A DNA stretch of 25,957 nucleotides from a virus: IMG/VR virus record IMGVR_UViG_3300038423_000020, positions 1 through 25,957 of that record; one strand, given 5' to 3'. Positions 2,950 to 25,957 of this stretch are shown here, piece by piece. Made by a program: the position numbers and the translations under genes. The notes below the pieces were generated by a model. The model was not told where the DNA came from, searched no databases, and was given only the letters and a program-made list of their open reading frames with translations. Numbering within the stretch: the stretch's first letter is position 1; each line of letters opens with the position of its first letter.

Positions 2950-5012
2950 TTTGTCTGTACCAAAGATGGCCTGGTCTTAAACATTAACTTGCCATAAACT
3001 GTTATACTGGATAACTCAAACAGGGTAGAATAGAAATCTGTATATCCAGAAAGCTGGACAGGTGCAACGTCATTTTGCAGTAACACTGACATAGCCTCAG
3101 ACTGGAAGTTTATTCCTCTATACAGCTCCATTCCTGATGTCACTGTTGTGCCAGAAAATAAAGGGTTATATTCAGTGAGGTCAAATCCAGGTACAGTCTG
3201 AGTAATATCTCCTTTTTTACTAACTACCTTAATAGATAGCTTGCCAATCCCAGCAACACTAAAGTCTAGCAGAGTAAAAACATTTATACCCTGACCAAAA
3301 TTAACGTTTGCTATTTGAATAATTTGCTTGATTGAATAAGCTCCTAAATCTCCTGGCAGAGGGGCTTGGTAAGTACTTGGAGGTACGGAAAGCATGTATA
3401 TGTCAGTTGAGATGCCTGAGTACTTTATAGGCCCACAAAATACTAGCTGCCACTGTGTAGTAGATGCGTAAGGCAGCATGTTAACAGCAGCTAACTTTGT
3501 TATTGTGGAAAGAAGTACAAAGCCATCAAAATCCCAGGTAGACCACTTTACAGTTGTTGGACCCAGGCCCTCTGTATAATCACACATCAAGAACTGTACT
3601 GTACCCCCAAGTATAGGAAGCATTACGTAAACACGTTTAAGAATAGGATCGTGAGCTAATTTTACAGTATAAAACCTCGTGGTGTCAAAAGTTCTCCAGA
3701 TACCATCTATTTTATATGAGAGTGGAGGATCTTGATAAGCACCATTAAATATGAGCAACCCACGAGGAGAAACAACAAGACACTGATCCAAAATATCCTG
3801 TGCAGATGCAGAGGATTCAAATATAGACAGACCAGAATCAAATGTACCCAAGCCACTATCAATCACAGTAACCGACCAGGTACTTGGATCTCCGCCATTA
3901 TCTTGTACTGCATAAGTACCAAACGGCTTCATGCAATACAAAACATTTCTGATAATAGCTCCTGTGTTTGTGTTATTTGCTCCATAGTCAACTGGCAGAT
4001 TAACAACTCCGGTTACCATGTTAAAAGTTTCTGGAGCTAGCTGATTGGAAACCAGAACATTATCTGGGTAATTATAGATTGTGCCTCCACTAGGAGGCAT
4101 GTCAGCCACACCATTAGGACCTATAAGAACAAGACGACCATTATACAGCTTTATTGAAGAGCAAGCTGGCAGTTGCCAAGCTATATCAAGCAGATAATCT
4201 GCAGATTCTATTAAAGCAAGATCAGTAACATTTATAGTTGCTGCTGCTGTTGTATTGTCATTGATAGTCCCATTAGGAACAAAAAAGTATTGCTTTTGGT
4301 TAGCCTGAGTCATAAGCAAGACTCTGCCAACTACATTAGGTGCAGAAGAGATTGGTATATCAGTTATATCCAATTGGTGCAATCCATCTGCATCTATAAC
4401 ACCTGGGGCAAATGCAGGCAATGGTGGTGTTAAAAAGCCGGTTTCAGTTAGAAAGCTAACCCCAATGTAATGAACACCGGCAGTTATTTGTGGGGTAGTT
4501 GCGCTTCCCTCTGCCACTGTTACAGGAGTTGTTACAGGAGGGCCACCAGCCAAAATAAATCTATAGCCAGGAGGAGCTGCTATAAGCTGATAGTAGTAGA
4601 TGCTTGTGTTTGGTAGTGCTTTCCCTTGGTACTTAAAAGAGATATAAGCCCGGCCAAAGACATTACAGGCAATGAAGTCATCAGGAAAATAATTTGCGTC
4701 AGTTCCAAATATGCTCCCTGGTGCTATAAGCATTACATTACTTGTTAGATCCCAAAAGCTACCATCAGAATACAGCCCAAGAACAGCAGTTCTTGTAGTG
4801 AGAGCAATTGCTGCAAATGAGATCAAACCGCTCTTGGGAGTTGCTAAGTAAGAAACAACAGATTCCCGAATAGAGACCTGGTTAGGTCCTGGAAAGATAC
4901 AGTTATTGCACTGTTGAAGATGATCTGGAGGACAAGTTTCACCAAGACCCCGATTCCACAAGCCATTAAAGCCTGCAATAGTCTTAGATTGAGTTGTGGA
5001 ATCAGGGCTCAT
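2946..5012 (-). CDS. Large tail hub / tail tubular protein B-like protein
   Basis: A 688-residue, beta-rich protein with no signal peptide. It begins MSPDSTTQSKTIAGFNGLWN, then has C-P-P-D-H-L-x-x-C-N-N-C-I-F-P-G near residues 27-42 and a series of short strands and Gly/Asp turns (TAVLGLYSDGSFWDLTSNV; YNGRLVLIGPNGVADMPPSG) consistent with a beta-propeller. In T7 the equivalent gp12 forms the nozzle below the gp11 ring. Size, order after the adaptors and before the gp13/14/15-like genes, and the beta pattern support this; sequence identity to gp12 is not evident by eye. The ATG has only a weak AGAAG-type ribosome site. The stop overlaps the next start as ATGA. Confidence 0.6.
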   Translation of the reverse strand: MSPDSTTQSKTIAGFNGLWNRGLGETCPPDHLQQCNNCIFPGPNQVSIRESVVSYLATPKSGLISFAAIALTTRTAVLGLYSDGSFWDLTSNVMLIAPGSIFGTDANYFPDDFIACNVFGRAYISFKYQGKALPNTSIYYYQLIAAPPGYRFILAGGPPVTTPVTVAEGSATTPQITAGVHYIGVSFLTETGFLTPPLPAFAPGVIDADGLHQLDITDIPISSAPNVVGRVLLMTQANQKQYFFVPNGTINDNTTAAATINVTDLALIESADYLLDIAWQLPACSSIKLYNGRLVLIGPNGVADMPPSGGTIYNYPDNVLVSNQLAPETFNMVTGVVNLPVDYGANNTNTGAIIRNVLYCMKPFGTYAVQDNGGDPSTWSVTVIDSGLGTFDSGLSIFESSASAQDILDQCLVVSPRGLLIFNGAYQDPPLSYKIDGIWRTFDTTRFYTVKLAHDPILKRVYVMLPILGGTVQFLMCDYTEGLGPTTVKWSTWDFDGFVLLSTITKLAAVNMLPYASTTQWQLVFCGPIKYSGISTDIYMLSVPPSTYQAPLPGDLGAYSIKQIIQIANVNFGQGINVFTLLDFSVAGIGKLSIKVVSKKGDITQTVPGFDLTEYNPLFSGTTVTSGMELYRGINFQSEAMSVLLQNDVAPVQLSGYTDFYSTLFELSSITVYGKLMFKTRPSLVQTK

Positions 5013-12963: not shown

Positions 12964-14196
12964 TTAACTTCCTAGAATGTCAATGTCAGACATTTTACTG
13001 TAGTCTACTTTGTCAGCGGAAGTTCGTCCGCTGCCGTTACTACCCCCTGTCCGACCTGAGTTATTTTCCTTGGGTGCAGAGCGAGTCTGCTCCCGCTTGT
13101 TATCCGCTGCTTTGATCTTAGTTCCAAGCATTGCAGCACTTACCTTAGAACAAGCATCAGGAATCAACGACTTTGCACGTGCAAGGTACGTGGAGATTAT
13201 CTTGCTTTCATCATCGCTGGTGTATCCATTAGCTCTTGCTCGCTTCCAACGAGCAGCCATCACACCCATGTGTCCTTTATCGCTTTCAAGTTGCTTCATG
13301 ATGCGTTTTATAACTTCTTGAGCACCTTGCTTGCGAAGAAAGGGACTAAAAACTCGATTAGGGTCAAAATTTGTGTCCTTGAACACAAGAGTTTCAAGAT
13401 TCTTAGTAACAGAATCTTGAACTTTTCCTGCACTGGCCCGAAAGTTTGTTGCAGAAGTCTGATCTTTCTGATCCTTTAATCTTTTCTGTTCTGCACTAAG
13501 TTCAACAACCTTAGCTACAGACTTTTGATTCTTAGCTACAGCCTCACCATCAGAGCCAAATAAGTATTCAGCTAGAACAAGGCCAGCATTTCTTGTGTTC
13601 TCATCTTTGTCTGCAAAGAGAGTACGGACAAGGTTTTGAAAAATTGGATTTACTGCTTGCACATATAAATCCTGGCTCTTCTTATATAGAGTCGGCAGGA
13701 AAGAAAGCGATAACAACTCAAGAGCTTTTGTGTCAGCTTTCTCAACACTGTCAAGCAAAGGGGCTGGATCACCAGCCAGCGTGCTTTCTGAAAGCACATT
13801 AAAAGCCTCATTGTCTTCAAAAGCTTCTTTAGCATCCTCAACAGTAGGAAAGAGTTTTGTAAACTCAAGTTCTCTAAAGTAAGCCTCTTTGAGTGTTGGA
13901 AAGTCTTTAAAGAGATCAGGATACTTAGCTTTGAGCTCCTTTACAGTTGGACGGTCAAAAGGAATTTGCGCAGCAGCTTCGGGTTCCTCCTCTGAAGGCT
14001 CTTCCTCTTCATCAGTCCCTTCCTTATCTTCTTTAACAGGAAGAGTTACTTTGATCTCTTCATCAGTTTCCTCTACAATAGGCTCATCAACTTGGCCTTC
14101 CTCAAGAAGAGTAACATCTTCATTGTATTTTGGACCATCTGCAGTTGCAGCAGGGCTGGGAACAACGGAACTAGAAACAGTTGCACTGTCAGGCAT
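12964..14196 (-). CDS. Scaffolding protein
   Basis: A 410-residue, highly charged protein just before the major capsid gene. The N-terminal ~75 residues are acidic (EEGQVDEPIVEETDEEIKV, then TDEEEEPSEEEPEAAA), the middle is helical, and a Lys/Gln-rich coiled coil (VELSAEQKRLKDQKDQ) leads to a basic C-terminal third (MAARWKRARANGY, DNKREQTRSAPK) with a Gly/Ser/Asn linker (GRTGGSNGSGRT) and a small C-terminal peptide (YSKMSDIDILGS). Acidic head plus basic capsid-binding tail is the usual architecture of scaffolds that fill the prohead and exit before packaging. The ATG has GGAG ten bases upstream. Confidence 0.8.
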   Translation of the reverse strand: MPDSATVSSSVVPSPAATADGPKYNEDVTLLEEGQVDEPIVEETDEEIKVTLPVKEDKEGTDEEEEPSEEEPEAAAQIPFDRPTVKELKAKYPDLFKDFPTLKEAYFRELEFTKLFPTVEDAKEAFEDNEAFNVLSESTLAGDPAPLLDSVEKADTKALELLSLSFLPTLYKKSQDLYVQAVNPIFQNLVRTLFADKDENTRNAGLVLAEYLFGSDGEAVAKNQKSVAKVVELSAEQKRLKDQKDQTSATNFRASAGKVQDSVTKNLETLVFKDTNFDPNRVFSPFLRKQGAQEVIKRIMKQLESDKGHMGVMAARWKRARANGYTSDDESKIISTYLARAKSLIPDACSKVSAAMLGTKIKAADNKREQTRSAPKENNSGRTGGSNGSGRTSADKVDYSKMSDIDILGS

Positions 14197-15454
14197 ACTT
14201 AAGCGTCTCCTTGATCATTTTAGGTAAAACTTCCGCTAGGTCTGTTCTATACTGCTTGTCAGGAACTTGCAACTTCTCAAGAATCTTATAAGGCTCTTCC
14301 AGACACTCCTCTGGAGTGTCACCAAGACCCATTGCGCAGGCTATAACTCCAGTTCCTCCAGAGTGCACAAGCGTACCATCTTGTGAACAAACCTCAAAGA
14401 AATACAAAGACTCAGAGTGCTTTTCATAGTTCTGAATAGGAACACCTTTATTGGGTGAAAACTTTTCTGAGTCTTGGTTGGGCTGGGGTTCAGCAGGATA
14501 AGGTGGTATAGTTATTCTAATTCCACCAGCGTCCTTTTTGAAAAATTCAGCCTCAGTTAACTGTCCAGATGCCAATCCATGAAAAAACTCACCAAAATCA
14601 CTGCTGAGTAAGGTCAGCAATGTAGGTGTTGCATCATAGCCAAATCTAGGTGTCCACTCTAAGCCATAAACACCAGACTCATTAACTACTGCATTGAGAT
14701 CAATTTGGCCAGCATAATTCTCACTAGCACAAAGAAACTTAATCTTTGCAACTCCTGCGTCAACTATTTTACTAGACTCCTCACAGGTCCAAGTTATATT
14801 CCCCGAACAGCCTGTGCTTGGCCCTAGGTCATCATTCATTGACTTCTTGACCTCAACAGTGTGATTTGGAGGCCACATAAATCCGTTACCATTACAGAAA
14901 AACTCAGAGGAAACTACGCAGCCTTCTATAAAGTCCTGCAGTATAAAGGACTCAATTTCCTTGTTAAAATGCTGCTCAACAAAGCTTAAATACGCAAGTA
15001 GCTCCTCTGAGTCTTTTGATACGTAGGTTAGCTTACAGGGCATAGTCCCTGACGGTTTAAAGACCAAGCGTTTGTTCGACTTCCGAACATACTCCATGCC
15101 TGCTTTAAAGTCTGTGAACCCTTTAAAACCTGGAATTTTAATGCCTGCTTTTTGCATAGCATCAAAACCAAACTGTCTGTCATGCTCAAGTTTATCTGCA
15201 AACTCAGAGGCACCGTAAACAAGCAAACCTTGCCGCTTATACATATCAGCAATCTTACCATTGCCTGACATATCAAAGATTATAACCGTGTCTTTATCTA
15301 CAAAGCTATCTGGTTCAACCTTAGGCAGTAGACCGTCAAAGACAGTAGAGTATAATTTATCTTTAATAAACAGTCCTACTTCATTTCCCTCAAGCTCAAT
15401 TCTTTTAAGAATCTGAGCTCCTTCTCCGCACTGTGAAAAAAGTAAAAACTTCAT
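14189..15454 (-). CDS. ATP-grasp ligase, PurD-like, inside the head operon
   Basis: A 421-residue enzyme of the ATP-grasp fold that would couple a carboxylate to an amine through an acyl-phosphate. The N-terminal Rossmann-like domain starts MKFLLFSQCGEGAQILKRI, as in phosphoribosylamine-glycine ligase. The ATP-grasp core shows Lys133 (RLVFKPSG), Glu177 (ILQDFIEGC), Asp252 (GQIDLNAVV) and Glu266 with Arg270 (GLEWTPRFGYDA). True PurD normally has E-F-N at the last site; here it is E-W-T, so the third metal ligand Asn is replaced and the substrate may differ. No other purine genes are nearby; the gene ends 8 bases inside the scaffold start, so it is coupled to head assembly. The ATG lacks a strong ribosome site close by. 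Peptide tagging, virion modification or nucleotide synthesis are all possible roles. Confidence 0.8.
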   Translation of the reverse strand: MKFLLFSQCGEGAQILKRIELEGNEVGLFIKDKLYSTVFDGLLPKVEPDSFVDKDTVIIFDMSGNGKIADMYKRQGLLVYGASEFADKLEHDRQFGFDAMQKAGIKIPGFKGFTDFKAGMEYVRKSNKRLVFKPSGTMPCKLTYVSKDSEELLAYLSFVEQHFNKEIESFILQDFIEGCVVSSEFFCNGNGFMWPPNHTVEVKKSMNDDLGPSTGCSGNITWTCEESSKIVDAGVAKIKFLCASENYAGQIDLNAVVNESGVYGLEWTPRFGYDATPTLLTLLSSDFGEFFHGLASGQLTEAEFFKKDAGGIRITIPPYPAEPQPNQDSEKFSPNKGVPIQNYEKHSESLYFFEVCSQDGTLVHSGGTGVIACAMGLGDTPEECLEEPYKILEKLQVPDKQYRTDLAEVLPKMIKETLKYA

Positions 15455-20913: not shown

Positions 20914-20967
20914 AGTGGATCATCTCCTTTCTCTTTGACCTAATGCGTCAAAGTGAGTGCAGCACAC

Positions 20968-21036
20968 TCAATTACCAGTCAGCTTAACTGTGTCACCTAC
21001 ATTGATTGCTACGCCATTAGCATCAAGAAGGGCCAT
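20968..21036 (-). CDS. 22-codon mini-ORF, truncated copy of the preceding gene's core
   Basis: The ATG overlaps the stop of the previous gene (TAATG), and GGAGG/AGG sequences lie just upstream, so it should be translated by coupling. The peptide is MALLDANGVAINVGDTVKLT followed by GN and a TGA stop. Compared with residues ~28-48 of the preceding protein (LTDIFGTTIAVGSMVKLVGK) the pattern D-x-x-G-x-x-I-x-V-G-x-x-V-K-L-x-G is shared, so it looks like the first half of a duplicated domain. The stop is followed by a small hairpin, TGAGTG-TGCTG-CACTCA (20954-20970). It may be a remnant or a genuinely tiny gene. Confidence 0.4.
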   Translation of the reverse strand: MALLDANGVAINVGDTVKLTGN

Positions 21037-22828: not shown

Positions 22829-23005
22829 TTACTCCTTTTTCTTTCTCTTACTTACAAGAGCCTTTGCAAACTTGTGTCTCTTCTTGGCTGGCGTAGCATC
22901 TATAAACTCTCTTGCTACAGCCTTGCTAGGCCCAGCCCCTCCAGTTATAGAGCTGTGAGCAATTCCCTGCATGAGACCATATTGTGCCCTGCTTTTTACA
23001 GGCAT
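22829..23005 (-). CDS. Small basic phage protein (58 residues)
   Basis: A 58-codon gene with an ideal ribosome site, GGAGG followed by AACT and ATG. Its start overlaps the stop of the homing endonuclease by 10 bases. The product begins MPVKSRAQYGLMQGIAHSS and has a conserved-looking segment GGAGPSKAVAREFIDATP, ending in a strongly basic tail (KALVSKRKKKE). From memory, short proteins of the pattern MPVKS..QYR.MQ...G...GPS..VA.EFI..TP occur widely in tailed phages, usually annotated as hypothetical. The basic tail suggests nucleic acid contact, which is inference only. It was probably directly adjacent to the gene at 23519-23851 before the endonuclease arrived. Confidence 0.75.
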   Translation of the reverse strand: MPVKSRAQYGLMQGIAHSSITGGAGPSKAVAREFIDATPAKKRHKFAKALVSKRKKKE

Positions 23006-23538
23006 AGTTCCTCCGCAATTAGATTCTCTGTAATGTAAGAGCGTTGCTCGTCACACAACAATTGCATCAAAGTGGGACTAAATCTTGTCCCTTTTAAAGA
23101 GCAAATCTTACATCTTATCCTAGTGTGACCTTGATAAATAAAGCTTTTTATGTTACTGCCTATAATATGATGGCCACGTCTACATACATCTCCCTCTCCA
23201 TGCCAACCCTTTCCAGGAATGTGAGACTTCCACAAATTTACTATAAATTTAATTCTTTCCTTCCTACGCTCCCCCATCAATGTGTAAATAGTAAGCATCC
23301 ACTCAATAGCCAACCTTCCCCATATACGTGTAATATAGAAAGGTTGCTTATTGTTCATGACCTCACTAACCATATACTTACCATTAGACATAAGCAAGGC
23401 AGCTCTTTCAACTATATCTTTATCTTTCATTCCCAGCTTTATTCCTGGGGCTGACCCATTAGCAATAACACTAAAAGATCCTTCACCATCTAACAAACCT
23501 GCCAACCACGCAATGTCTCTAGCTGACTTGGCTGGCAT
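22996..23538 (-). CDS. Free-standing LAGLIDADG homing endonuclease with C-terminal zinc-binding motif
   Basis: A 180-residue protein with a single LAGLIDADG-type motif at residues 11-22 (WLAGLLDGEGSF), carrying the acidic residue that ligates metal at the active site. A helix-rich segment follows (WGRLAIEWMLTIYTLMG, then ERRKERI), typical of the second half of such a domain. One motif implies action as a homodimer. The C-terminal part has C-R-R-G-H...R-C-K-I-C, a likely zinc knuckle for DNA contact. Such enzymes cut an allele lacking the gene so that repair copies it in; free-standing versions are common beside phage terminase genes. The gene overlaps its neighbours by 20 bases upstream and 10 downstream, so it is translationally embedded in the operon. 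No intron ends are apparent in terL. Confidence 0.85.
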   Translation of the reverse strand: MPAKSARDIAWLAGLLDGEGSFSVIANGSAPGIKLGMKDKDIVERAALLMSNGKYMVSEVMNNKQPFYITRIWGRLAIEWMLTIYTLMGERRKERIKFIVNLWKSHIPGKGWHGEGDVCRRGHHIIGSNIKSFIYQGHTRIRCKICSLKGTRFSPTLMQLLCDEQRSYITENLIAEELCL

Positions 23539-23851
23539 CTTCTTCTCCTTGCTCTGCTGCTGTTAAACCCTCTGTTGTGTAAGGGAGATCCAAAAGACCA
23601 GAATGCTCAGGAATTCCAGTAAGTTCAGAAACTTTTGGTTTGTGTATACGCTCAAGCCTGGCTTTCCTTTGATACCAAGGCATCCTCCCAAGCGGCTGCA
23701 TCTTAGAAGGAATAGTAACTACAGAGACCTCTTCACGAGGCATAAGATGGCCAGCCTGAAGGAGAAGTTCAGTCAAAGCTGCATTCTCCGCCCTGAGAGA
23801 ATCAATGATCTCTAGTAATCGAGCTGTCAAATTAAACTCAGTAGTTGGCAT
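23519..23851 (-). CDS. Hypothetical small coiled-coil phage protein
   Basis: About 110 residues of unknown function, overlapping the end of terL. I place the start at the ATG at 23851, which has GGAGG ten bases upstream; a GTG at 23857 with four-base spacing is the alternative and would add two residues. The N-terminal third (LLEIIDSLRAENAALTELLL) has heptad-like leucine and isoleucine spacing and probably forms a short coiled coil. A basic stretch follows (WYQRKARLERIHK), then an acidic tail (EQGEEDAS). The position after terL and the composition suggest a packaging or head accessory protein, but I do not recognise the family. The stop codon overlaps the start of the downstream homing endonuclease by 20 bases. 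Confidence 0.6.
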   Translation of the reverse strand: MPTTEFNLTARLLEIIDSLRAENAALTELLLQAGHLMPREEVSVVTIPSKMQPLGRMPWYQRKARLERIHKPKVSELTGIPEHSGLLDLPYTTEGLTAAEQGEEDASQVS

Positions 23852-25499
23852 AAACACCAGGCCTCCGATGAAATCTGCGATGGCCGTGCTGAGTCTTTAC
23901 AGCACGAGCATCAAGGCTATTCATACGCATATAGAACTGATTTATATTTCCAGTTCGTTCGTATGTCGAACAAACCTCAGCAACTTCCGCTGCTGACTTC
24001 GCCTCAGACATGCCTCCATCAAGATAGTTTTGGCACGCAGAGACTCCATACCTTGTTTCATCATAAGGGTCATCTCCATCAAACTCTGCCACGTCTTCCG
24101 GTCTATCTTTATCGTATACGCACAGAGGAAGGGTCTCTCTAGTCTTTTCGCAGCACTCAAAAATCTGAAATTGAGGCAGAAGCGTTTCTTCTGGTTCAGG
24201 CTGGAAGAGTTTGCAGTATTCTTCATAAGCATCTGGCCCATTCATTCGGCGAATCTTATTAGCCAGCTCCGCGTCAAATCCGGTAAGTGGTGTATAACGA
24301 GCAGGCCTGGATCGCCAACGGAGAAGTTCTTGTAAGAGCAACTTTCCACCAACCCTGTCATTATAGGCTTTTCTGGGGTGCTTTCCAAAAACCTTGGCAA
24401 ACTGCTCTGCAATAGAGGAAGGATCGCCACGGTCTTGCCAGGCTGAAGGGTCCATTACAAGGTCTGTGTAAACTTCATTTCCACACAGCCTTCGGATGTC
24501 ACTGGCCCAAGTTGAGATTTTGGTTTTCTTGCAGGTGTACTCACGGTATTTGTAGATTTTGGCGGGGTATTGGGCGGAGGGGACTGGATTGATAGCATAC
24601 CAGCCACATACCGTCATAGCTGCATATCCCCAGTCTATAGACATCAACTTAGGCCAGTAACTTGGAATTGTGAACTCTTTAATGACATGCCTTGCACAAG
24701 AAGGCTCATCTGGAAATGGCTGTTCTCTCCAATCCTCAAAAACCTGGCCAGAGAAAGACCACCAGTCTCCGTCAGCCTTAGCAGCGCGTTCGGCTAAAGG
24801 CAAGCGGTTCAGACGATTAATGTAGTCTGGGTCATTTGCCATCAGATAAGTGTTATCTGTGGCTTTGGAGGGAATGTAAATGCGGAAAGAAGCTTTTCCG
24901 CGGCGGGTTTCGCGCAATACTACATTGCCTAATCTATTAGGCTGGACAAATCTTGTTCTAAAGTAGGAGTGACCAATGTTACCAGGATTTGTGCCTGCCC
25001 TAACAATTGCAGGAAGGTCGGGACTGGAGGATCGACAACGGGAGAAGGTGACATATTCATACTGGAAGGGGTCAAAGCTGGTGGCTTCGTCAAAGGCAAT
25101 GACGTTGTACTCTGAGGTGTCATACTTCCTTACGTCCTCTACGTGTTCACAGTGCCCGAACTGGACAATAGCACCAGACTTGTTTGTCCATCGCTTTTTC
25201 TGTTCTTGATAGGGGAGGAAATCAAAGGATTCATAGGGTGGTAAATTCCCAGTGCCTTTTGTCCTCGGCACAACCTCTCCATCGAGCTCCGGGAAAGTTC
25301 GACGAAGAAAGAGCATTTTAAATCTGGGATTTGTATAAAGAGGCTTGCCATTCTTGTCCTTCTTTACAAATGGTATAGAGAGAAGAGCGTCAGTCTTGCC
25401 ACCGCCAGCCGCTCCCCCATACAGAGCTTCAAAAATCTCGTCGGGAAGGCTTAGAAAGTCAGCTTGGCGTTGTGTGGGTGACCAAGATTGTACTGGCAT
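23838..25499 (-). CDS. terL: Terminase large subunit (DNA packaging ATPase and nuclease)
   Basis: A 553-residue packaging motor that translocates phage DNA into the prohead and cuts it. The N-terminal ATPase domain shows a Walker A loop at residues 28-36 (GGAAGGGKT), a Walker B strand at 133-139 (VIAFDEA, with catalytic Glu138) and a coupling motif near 167-173 (RAGTNPG). The C-terminal RNase H-like nuclease of the Terminase_6 type shows an acidic strand at 287-291 (SIDWG, Asp289), a second Asp at 350 (LVMDPSAW) and late acidic residues around 477-480 (DDPYDETRYG). All core motifs are present and the length is usual for the family, so the protein looks intact. The ATG at 25499 has only a weak AGG-type ribosome site and lies nine bases after a stem-loop. 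The 3' end overlaps the next gene by about 14 bases. Confidence 0.95.
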   Translation of the reverse strand: MPVQSWSPTQRQADFLSLPDEIFEALYGGAAGGGKTDALLSIPFVKKDKNGKPLYTNPRFKMLFLRRTFPELDGEVVPRTKGTGNLPPYESFDFLPYQEQKKRWTNKSGAIVQFGHCEHVEDVRKYDTSEYNVIAFDEATSFDPFQYEYVTFSRCRSSSPDLPAIVRAGTNPGNIGHSYFRTRFVQPNRLGNVVLRETRRGKASFRIYIPSKATDNTYLMANDPDYINRLNRLPLAERAAKADGDWWSFSGQVFEDWREQPFPDEPSCARHVIKEFTIPSYWPKLMSIDWGYAAMTVCGWYAINPVPSAQYPAKIYKYREYTCKKTKISTWASDIRRLCGNEVYTDLVMDPSAWQDRGDPSSIAEQFAKVFGKHPRKAYNDRVGGKLLLQELLRWRSRPARYTPLTGFDAELANKIRRMNGPDAYEEYCKLFQPEPEETLLPQFQIFECCEKTRETLPLCVYDKDRPEDVAEFDGDDPYDETRYGVSACQNYLDGGMSEAKSAAEVAEVCSTYERTGNINQFYMRMNSLDARAVKTQHGHRRFHRRPGVYANY

Positions 25500-25627
25500 T
25501 GTTTAGCCTGTCATCACGACAGTCTTTGTTTTGGTGGGCACTCAACTGCTTAGTCTCTCGACAATCAGTGTCTTGTGCCCACCTTGCACTCTGACGGACG
25601 CCGTTAACGCAGATCAGAGGCAAACTC
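25500..25627 (-). other. Structured spacer before large terminase: three consecutive stem-loops
   Basis: This is the longest non-coding gap between well-supported genes. Reading the minus strand it contains: stem 1, CTCTGA/TCAGAG (25614-25619 with 25589-25594, 19-nt loop with CGTTAACG inside); stem 2, a perfect 9-bp GGTGGGCAC/GTGCCCACC (25575-25583 with 25533-25541, 33-nt loop containing a GTC-GAGA-GAC mini-hairpin); stem 3, CTGTC/GACAG (25518-25522 with 25508-25512, 5-nt loop), ending nine bases before the terL ATG. No U-tract follows any stem, so they are not intrinsic terminators. Being between the two terminase genes, it could be a packaging (cos/pac) site or a translational control element of terL. 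The function is inferred; the pairing is seen. Confidence 0.5.
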
Positions 25628-25957
25628 CTAAACATCCTGGATGGAAAAAGCATCCATCCTACGAGGCCCAGGTGCATATACAAGAAACTGCACCCGATTG
25701 TCATTCATTTCTTTGGGAGCTGTCTTGTCTAAGACTCTAGACAGATTAGCTGTGTTTGTAGACAACTCTTTGAGACTTGCAGAAGCAAGCATATCTGGGG
25801 TCATCAAGCCCAGTGTAATGAGAAGTCGGTCAAGCGCCAGCTCTCTCACACGGGCAAGACTTGCACTTACCTTGCTTTCGTCTGCTGCACGAACATCACG
25901 AGGTGTGATATTAAATTCCTTACATACAGTAACTTCAGGCACTCCCTGCCGAACAAG
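25628..25957 (-). CDS. Probable terminase small subunit (HTH protein), 5' end outside window
   Basis: The reading frame is open to the right edge, so only the C-terminal 109 residues are visible. A GTG at 25942 could be read as a start, but the frame continues upstream (L-V-R-Q-G) and a GGGA directly abuts the GTG, too close for a ribosome site, so I treat the gene as partial. The visible N-terminal part (GVPEVTVCKEFNITPRDVRA) has the spacing of a helix-turn-helix, followed by a helical region and a short polar tail ending RRMDAFSIQDV. Small terminases bind the packaging site through an N-terminal HTH and hand DNA to the large subunit. Position immediately before the large terminase gene supports this. 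It could instead be another small DNA-binding regulator. Confidence 0.45.
   Translation of the reverse strand, partial: LVRQGVPEVTVCKEFNITPRDVRAADESKVSASLARVRELALDRLLITLGLMTPDMLASASLKELSTNTANLSRVLDKTAPKEMNDNRVQFLVYAPGPRRMDAFSIQDV

Follow-up and report, generated by a model that had tools for sequence, protein, structure and literature searches.

The window, by which we mean the whole 25,957-base stretch analysed here, is a virus record that represents a fragment of a genome and carries its genes on the minus strand. The terminase large subunit gene, terL (23838..25499, minus strand), was assigned by its match to PHROG 979 (E 2.8e-30), and a Pfam search of the window's TerL gave no match. It is separated from a terS-like ORF by a 128-base gap at 25500-25627. 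This ORF lies on the same strand, is present with its 3' part (25628..25957) and extends past the end of the window. It aligns with the ORFs that precede terL in four relatives (terS-like ORFs are alignable across the window, G001, G004, G005 and G006), and the name terS is inferred from its position together with an HTH-like stretch judged by eye. The mRNA of the gap region corresponds to the minus strand. No clear Shine-Dalgarno (SD) sequence precedes terL of the window, though many other genes of the window have one.

The sequence-only reading had described the gene run as otherwise gapless. This is nearly the case, except for a second interval of 122 bases (20914-21035), which contains a short ORF and whose fold is unexceptional (z -1.36). 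A free-standing LAGLIDADG-type ORF (22996-23538, minus strand), two ORFs further down from terL, matches PF14528 barely above the cut-off. The gene run also includes an ATP-grasp protein like phosphoribosylglycinamide synthetase (14189-15454, minus strand), which has relatives in G001, G005, G008 and G013.

The three inverted repeats (6, 9 and 5 bp) previously noticed in the gap were recovered, those of 6 and 9 bp by a repeat search and the one of 5 bp in the folds. Hairpin 1 (25584..25623, minus strand), with 6 bp at 25589-25594/25614-25619, is stable in the fold and lacks the motif described below. Hairpin 2 (25533..25583, minus strand) is built on a 9-bp stem (25533-25541/25575-25583) that is perfect, as had been claimed, and its apex, GUC-GAGA-GAC at 25553-25562, matches the core of the motif as a weaker copy. 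Hairpin 3 (25503..25527, minus strand) is the conserved element, delimited by folding, alignment and covariation. It comprises a 5-bp stem (25508-25512/25518-25522) capped by the loop GUGAU (25513-25517), an unpaired A at 25523 opposite 25507, and two more pairs below. The distance from its stem to the terL ATG is eight bases, not the nine first counted. A closing 7-bp stem (25500-25506/25628-25634, spanning 25500..25634 on the minus strand), found in the predicted fold and by an inverted-repeat search and overlooked at first, encloses all three hairpins as a junction; the stop codon of terS lies in its 5' strand, and its 3' strand ends at the base before the terL ATG. The gap has no U-tract on the minus strand, in agreement with the earlier description, so the U-run that follows the hairpin of an intrinsic terminator is missing.

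Folding of positions 25490-25640 as the minus strand gave -56.9 kcal/mol with a z of -4.27, and none of 200 shuffles was as good. The gap is thus more stable than shuffled sequence, the comparison that had been proposed for it. The same region folded as the plus strand is weaker than the coding strand (z -3.20). Folded one by one, hairpins 3, 2 and 1 have z values of -2.41, -5.05 and -3.12, respectively.

Searches of IMG/VR with TerL returned 24, 80 and 66 loci in overlapping sets. The nearest TerL in the phage record collection is approximately 31% identical, so no close cultured relative is present there. The terS fragment, used as a query, brought up no relatives, and scans with two clade-B TerL proteins and of the genome collection gave no further close relative having sequence upstream of terL. 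Tetraloop counts over all 94 loci did not make the motif visible because distant phages dominate them. A structured scan for C-G-closed GNRA-type loops, 4 or 5 nt long and on stems of five pairs or more, located no more than 400 nt upstream of terL, covered 86 loci and the window. It yielded 12 matches, nine of them with the core GUC-G(U/C)GA(U)-GAY (three of the nine are one site in the overlapping or near-identical records L029, L030 and L031); the others are GCC-GAAA-GGC, twice, and UUC-GGGAU-GAA, once.

In the 300 nt upstream of terL of nine soil relatives, the window included, the core occurs 12 times in the sense and never in the antisense orientation, as counted with a sequence-only pattern that was defined after viewing the sequences. 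Over 1000 shuffles of these nine zones, the mean was 0.105 core matches and the maximum 2. Seven of the nine zones contain the core, five of them in two copies, and it is absent from the 300-nt zones of G006 and G007. The pattern matches 20 times in the 449 kb of strand of the nine records, so about eight matches fall outside the terL-upstream zones. The distance to terL is 127-278 nt for the copies of G001 and G011 and for one copy of G013.

The alignment of 13 clade copies reveals that the U-A and C-G pairs of the core are invariant, whereas the third pair is either G-C or G-U, with G-U in seven of the 13 at one position. The outermost pair forms in 13/13 copies and occurs as four types, and the fourth pair forms in 9/13. 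Some of these rows were found with a stem requirement, and in those rows the outer pairs are therefore not independent; rows added by core sequence alone also form the outermost pair. The covariation that had been proposed as a check is thus seen, as compensatory changes in copies of hairpin 3; it does not bear on hairpin 1 or on the closing 7-bp stem.

Three features of individual relatives were noted in passing. The terL frame of G007 (L135, 7942-10734) has 931 codons with an internal LAGLIDADG domain and looks like an intein. In L007, the terL start lies within the loop of another 7-bp hairpin that uses coding sequence (2960-3020). L005 has a motif copy at 347-372, some 19 nt before an ORF (377-781) that lies directly upstream of terS; the ORF is GIY-YIG-like by eye, and PHROGs returns unknown families only.

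The motif is found well beyond these relatives. An exact scan of IMG/VR with the window's 16-mer returned 114 stretches with 117 sites, and a related terL (tblastn, 1e-4) is present in one of these stretches only, the record of G001. An ATG or GTG start lies within 24 nt at 62 of the 117 sites, 42 of them with an SD. After removal of identical contexts, 95 distinct sites remained. At 31 of them an SD-led ORF of 60 aa or longer begins 8-16 nt downstream, versus 0/95 on the opposite strand and 93/4750 (2%) at random positions. The other 64 exact sites do not pass this SD-and-start test.

The ORFs behind the sites form 31 clusters, and 24 of these were scanned against PHROGs. Six matched major head proteins (top PHROGs 334, 617, 10, 267, 1328 and 371, of which 617 and 10 overlap), six matched tail proteins, one weakly matched a portal protein, five fell into families of unknown function and six were unmatched. 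Head, packaging or tail functions therefore account for 13 of the 24 clusters, and unknown or unmatched ORFs for 11. Among 20 control ORFs scanned from 23 drawn at the same loci, seven are of known class and six of these are head or connector proteins, which indicates that these loci are rich in virion genes regardless of the motif. Major head proteins make up 6/24 downstream clusters versus 1/20 controls, a difference that is not decisive.

A covariance model, R1, was built from 26 chosen copies, with none from the terL clade. The motif has a 5-bp stem, NN-GUC/GAY-NN, preceded on its 5' side by an unpaired A and closed by a GNRA-type loop of 4 or 5 nt. An A stands directly 5' of the stem in 45 of 47 distinct copies that have an SD and a start. 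The lower stem is short and in other phages extends into the SD region; it forms 2.11 bp with its own downstream strand versus 1.26 bp with shuffled partners, a value reached in 0/2000 shuffles. The outer pairs form in 26/26 of the chosen copies and covary (CG 18, AU 4 and UA 4 at one, UA 18 and CG 8 at the other), and below the A mismatch a pair, of five types in all, is present in 25/26.

A search of 282 kb of clade records with R1 produced 13 matches at E up to 10, the top 11 of which are all motif copies, with the two lowest elsewhere. Nine of the 11 are upstream of terL (in the window, G001, G005, G011 and G013, and twice each in G004 and G008), one precedes another ORF of G005 and one is hairpin 2 of the window. 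The first three have E values no higher than 0.00014, and the rest of the top matches range from 0.036 to 2.9. Within the window, hairpin 3 scores 32.2 bits and hairpin 2 scores 11.2 bits (E 2.9). All R1 source records were found through the window's 16-mer, and the top score of the window is consequently partly built in; the scores of the relatives are less so. One copy in G011 and another in G013 escape the model.

The 487 kb of 12 larger carrier records contain 34 R1 matches at E up to 1, four of which are training rows while others match training copies; an ORF start is close behind 31 of them, and 23 have an SD. The clustering of these matches is better evidence of placement than the virion-class counts. 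The 114-kb record of G053 has six matches within 24 kb, if its ends are assumed to join, and the 95-kb record of G036 has four within approximately 9 kb. A weak copy (E 0.11) precedes an ORF of G024 read by eye as terS, and the GCC/GGC core variant is also present in carrier records. Tandem copies are frequent in the terL clade and amount to 2/26 elsewhere by a strict test, so the tandem layout is not a general property. No element was found upstream of cultured homologues of the carriers' capsid genes (nine regions, one of them ended by the record end), no GUC-core copy in three further cultured regions and no match in E. coli genomes; plasmids gave one 18-base match, at chance level.

Taken together, the data suggest, with a probability of about 55%, that hairpin 3 and probably also hairpin 2 are copies of an RNA element which recurs among phages and works in cis on the initiation of translation of the downstream gene. 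Its anatomy matches that of a translational operator, with a specific apex, a weak lower stem that runs into the SD and a start codon shortly after. The hairpin lies at the ribosome-binding site, both at the 31 of 95 sites described above and in the window, 8 nt before the ATG, and its structure is conserved through compensatory changes. The window differs in that hairpin 3 itself occupies the expected position of the SD and no SD stands behind the copy. In the best reading the element would control mostly virion genes. The sequence-only reading had proposed an RNA switch for terminase synthesis; RNA control of terL is supported by the motif in seven of nine records, its sense orientation and the compensatory changes, whereas a scope restricted to the terminase is too narrow, because outside the clade the motif precedes capsid, tail, portal and other ORFs. 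A protein would recognise the unpaired A, the GUC/GAY stem and the loop, and, when bound, would keep the ribosome-binding site closed, so that virion proteins, TerL included, might be made at the right time or in the right amount. No protein family common to the carriers outside the clade was found among records many of which are fragments, which leaves as candidates a host factor, a gene missed in partial records or no binder at all.

The last of these options is a possible, if doubtful, explanation in its own right: a stable RNA cap that raises the output of virion proteins by keeping the ribosome-binding site unstructured, by protecting a processed 5' end or by marking a processing site. 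Besides the missing common phage regulator, the stable folding of the short stem and loop and the six major head proteins among 24 clusters agree with it, but a need for stability would not by itself fix the A and the GUC/GAY core or make the lower stem pair into the SD. A binder might instead be borrowed from the host. The motif resembles a 23S rRNA stem-loop, which we take to be helix 93, and it is quite unlikely, though worth noting, that the phage copies mimic this helix and are recognised by a protein of the host that binds it, RluB or RluF for instance, which are pseudouridine synthases with an S4 domain. E. coli 23S rRNA contains GTCGTGAGAC from position 2592, and R1 gives this site 14.3 bits (E 0.12 in 122 kb). 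RluB and RluF bind the isolated stem-loop 2587-2607 with the S4 domain at the loop end, and A2590-U2596 are contacts common to both (PMC3919597). The target uridine (the position of U2604 or U2605) is not conserved in the phage alignments, the loops of the phage copies vary, and most of these copies carry the unpaired A 5' of the apex, where rRNA has it on the 3' side (A2602); moreover, so short a match can arise by chance. We regard the 23S likeness as a lead and not as a test. It is very unlikely that the apex is simply stable in general and serves in terminators, tRNA clusters and leaders alike, with no single function. Such reuse would account for the copies of L219, L247 and L283, whose long lower stems are followed by U-runs, for one G004 copy that ends in GGGTCTTTTT and for Vibrio phage copies in tRNA clusters, but not for the association with SD and start, the spacing or the clustering upstream of terL.

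The remaining alternatives concern the window's own layout. The closing 7-bp stem, flanked by the terS stop and the terL start, could bring the two together for the passage of ribosomes, a reinitiation bridge that would suit a terL with no clear SD; other ORFs stand between terS and terL in G005, G008, G011 and G013, and we consider this scarcely plausible. The location of the gap between terS and terL had also suggested a DNA packaging site (pac or cos). This suggestion finds no support here and is now highly improbable, since the same element precedes other virion genes, occurs on the sense strand only and contains G-U pairs, which fit an RNA structure rather than a palindrome in DNA. A target for a LAGLIDADG homing endonuclease was considered because the window encodes the LAGLIDADG ORF mentioned above and because the I-CreI site contains the same 10-mer (PMC6035192). 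PF14528 was found in 2/17 records, the window and G007, the latter without the motif, and six motif records lack it; strand bias and G-U pairs again argue for RNA. This candidate, to which we assign next to no probability, was rejected, as the cognate gene is absent from most motif-carrying genomes.

Coat operators of ssRNA phages are translational operator hairpins. The element proposed here as a cis-acting initiation signal is similar to phage translational operators: each is a small hairpin that lies close to or across the ribosome-binding site and has particular bases in its loop and stem. It differs from them in its loop and stem, in its occurrence before many genes in many phage lineages and in having no known repressor. 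The operator of T4/RB69 gene 43 is described as a hairpin plus a sequence overlapping the ribosome-binding site (PMC3014915). Lambdoid boxB shares the 5-bp stem and the GNRA-like pentaloop, and GACAA of P22, in which one base is looped out, is comparable to GUCGA here; phage N peptides bind GNRA-like pentaloops with one looped-out base, which was counted in favour of a hairpin read by a protein (PMC12550061). Unlike the boxB of nut sites, which lies in early leaders, the element is found at start codons, and a boxA-like string occurs within 40 nt of 2/26 copies. Helix 93, as the RluB/RluF substrate, shares the GUC-GUGA-GAC core, and differs in the strand that usually carries the unpaired A and in the target uridines, which the phage copies lack. 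The mobE gene of phage Aeh1 reportedly has an RBS-sequestering hairpin; judged by title only, both are hairpins over a phage ribosome-binding site, and the recurrence seen here is not so described there. The CUUCGG intercistronic hairpins of T4 are repeated stable hairpins between the genes of one phage. They are alike in this respect, while the GNRA-type loop, the unpaired A, the SD-linked spacing and the many lineages set the present element apart. Rfam 15 gave no family match in the window at gathering score, nor did six carrier loci match any family at E values up to 0.5, and the element was not described among the matches listed in literature searches by sequence and topic. The hairpin therefore looks like an undescribed switch for the synthesis of virus particle proteins.

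A broader version, which we hold to be rather unlikely, is an RNA regulon across phages. The hairpin would stand ahead of the genes for capsid, tail, portal, TerS and TerL in different lineages, and a single RNA-binding factor encoded by the host would read all of these copies and so coordinate virion protein synthesis. This factor might be an S4-domain pseudouridine synthase whose normal target is helix 93 of 23S rRNA. Control of late phage genes has mostly been described at the level of transcription. If the proposed role is correct, a shared factor, perhaps one of the host, would adjust virion protein synthesis at the level of the ribosome, and the element would help to recognise such genes by sequence in phages that have not been cultivated.

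A few copies lie in other settings. In Klebsiella phage phiKp_21 (L329, 19999-20023) a match of 39 bits falls within 2 kb that carry no annotated genes, and no ORF of at least 60 aa was found around the site. The copies in L219, L247 and L283 have lower stems of 7-9 bp followed by the U-runs, as in apex-capped terminators. Those in the tRNA clusters of Vibrio phages are at L330 3003-3027 (loop GCGAU), L331 2503-2527 (GUGAU) and L332 2503-2526 (GUGA).
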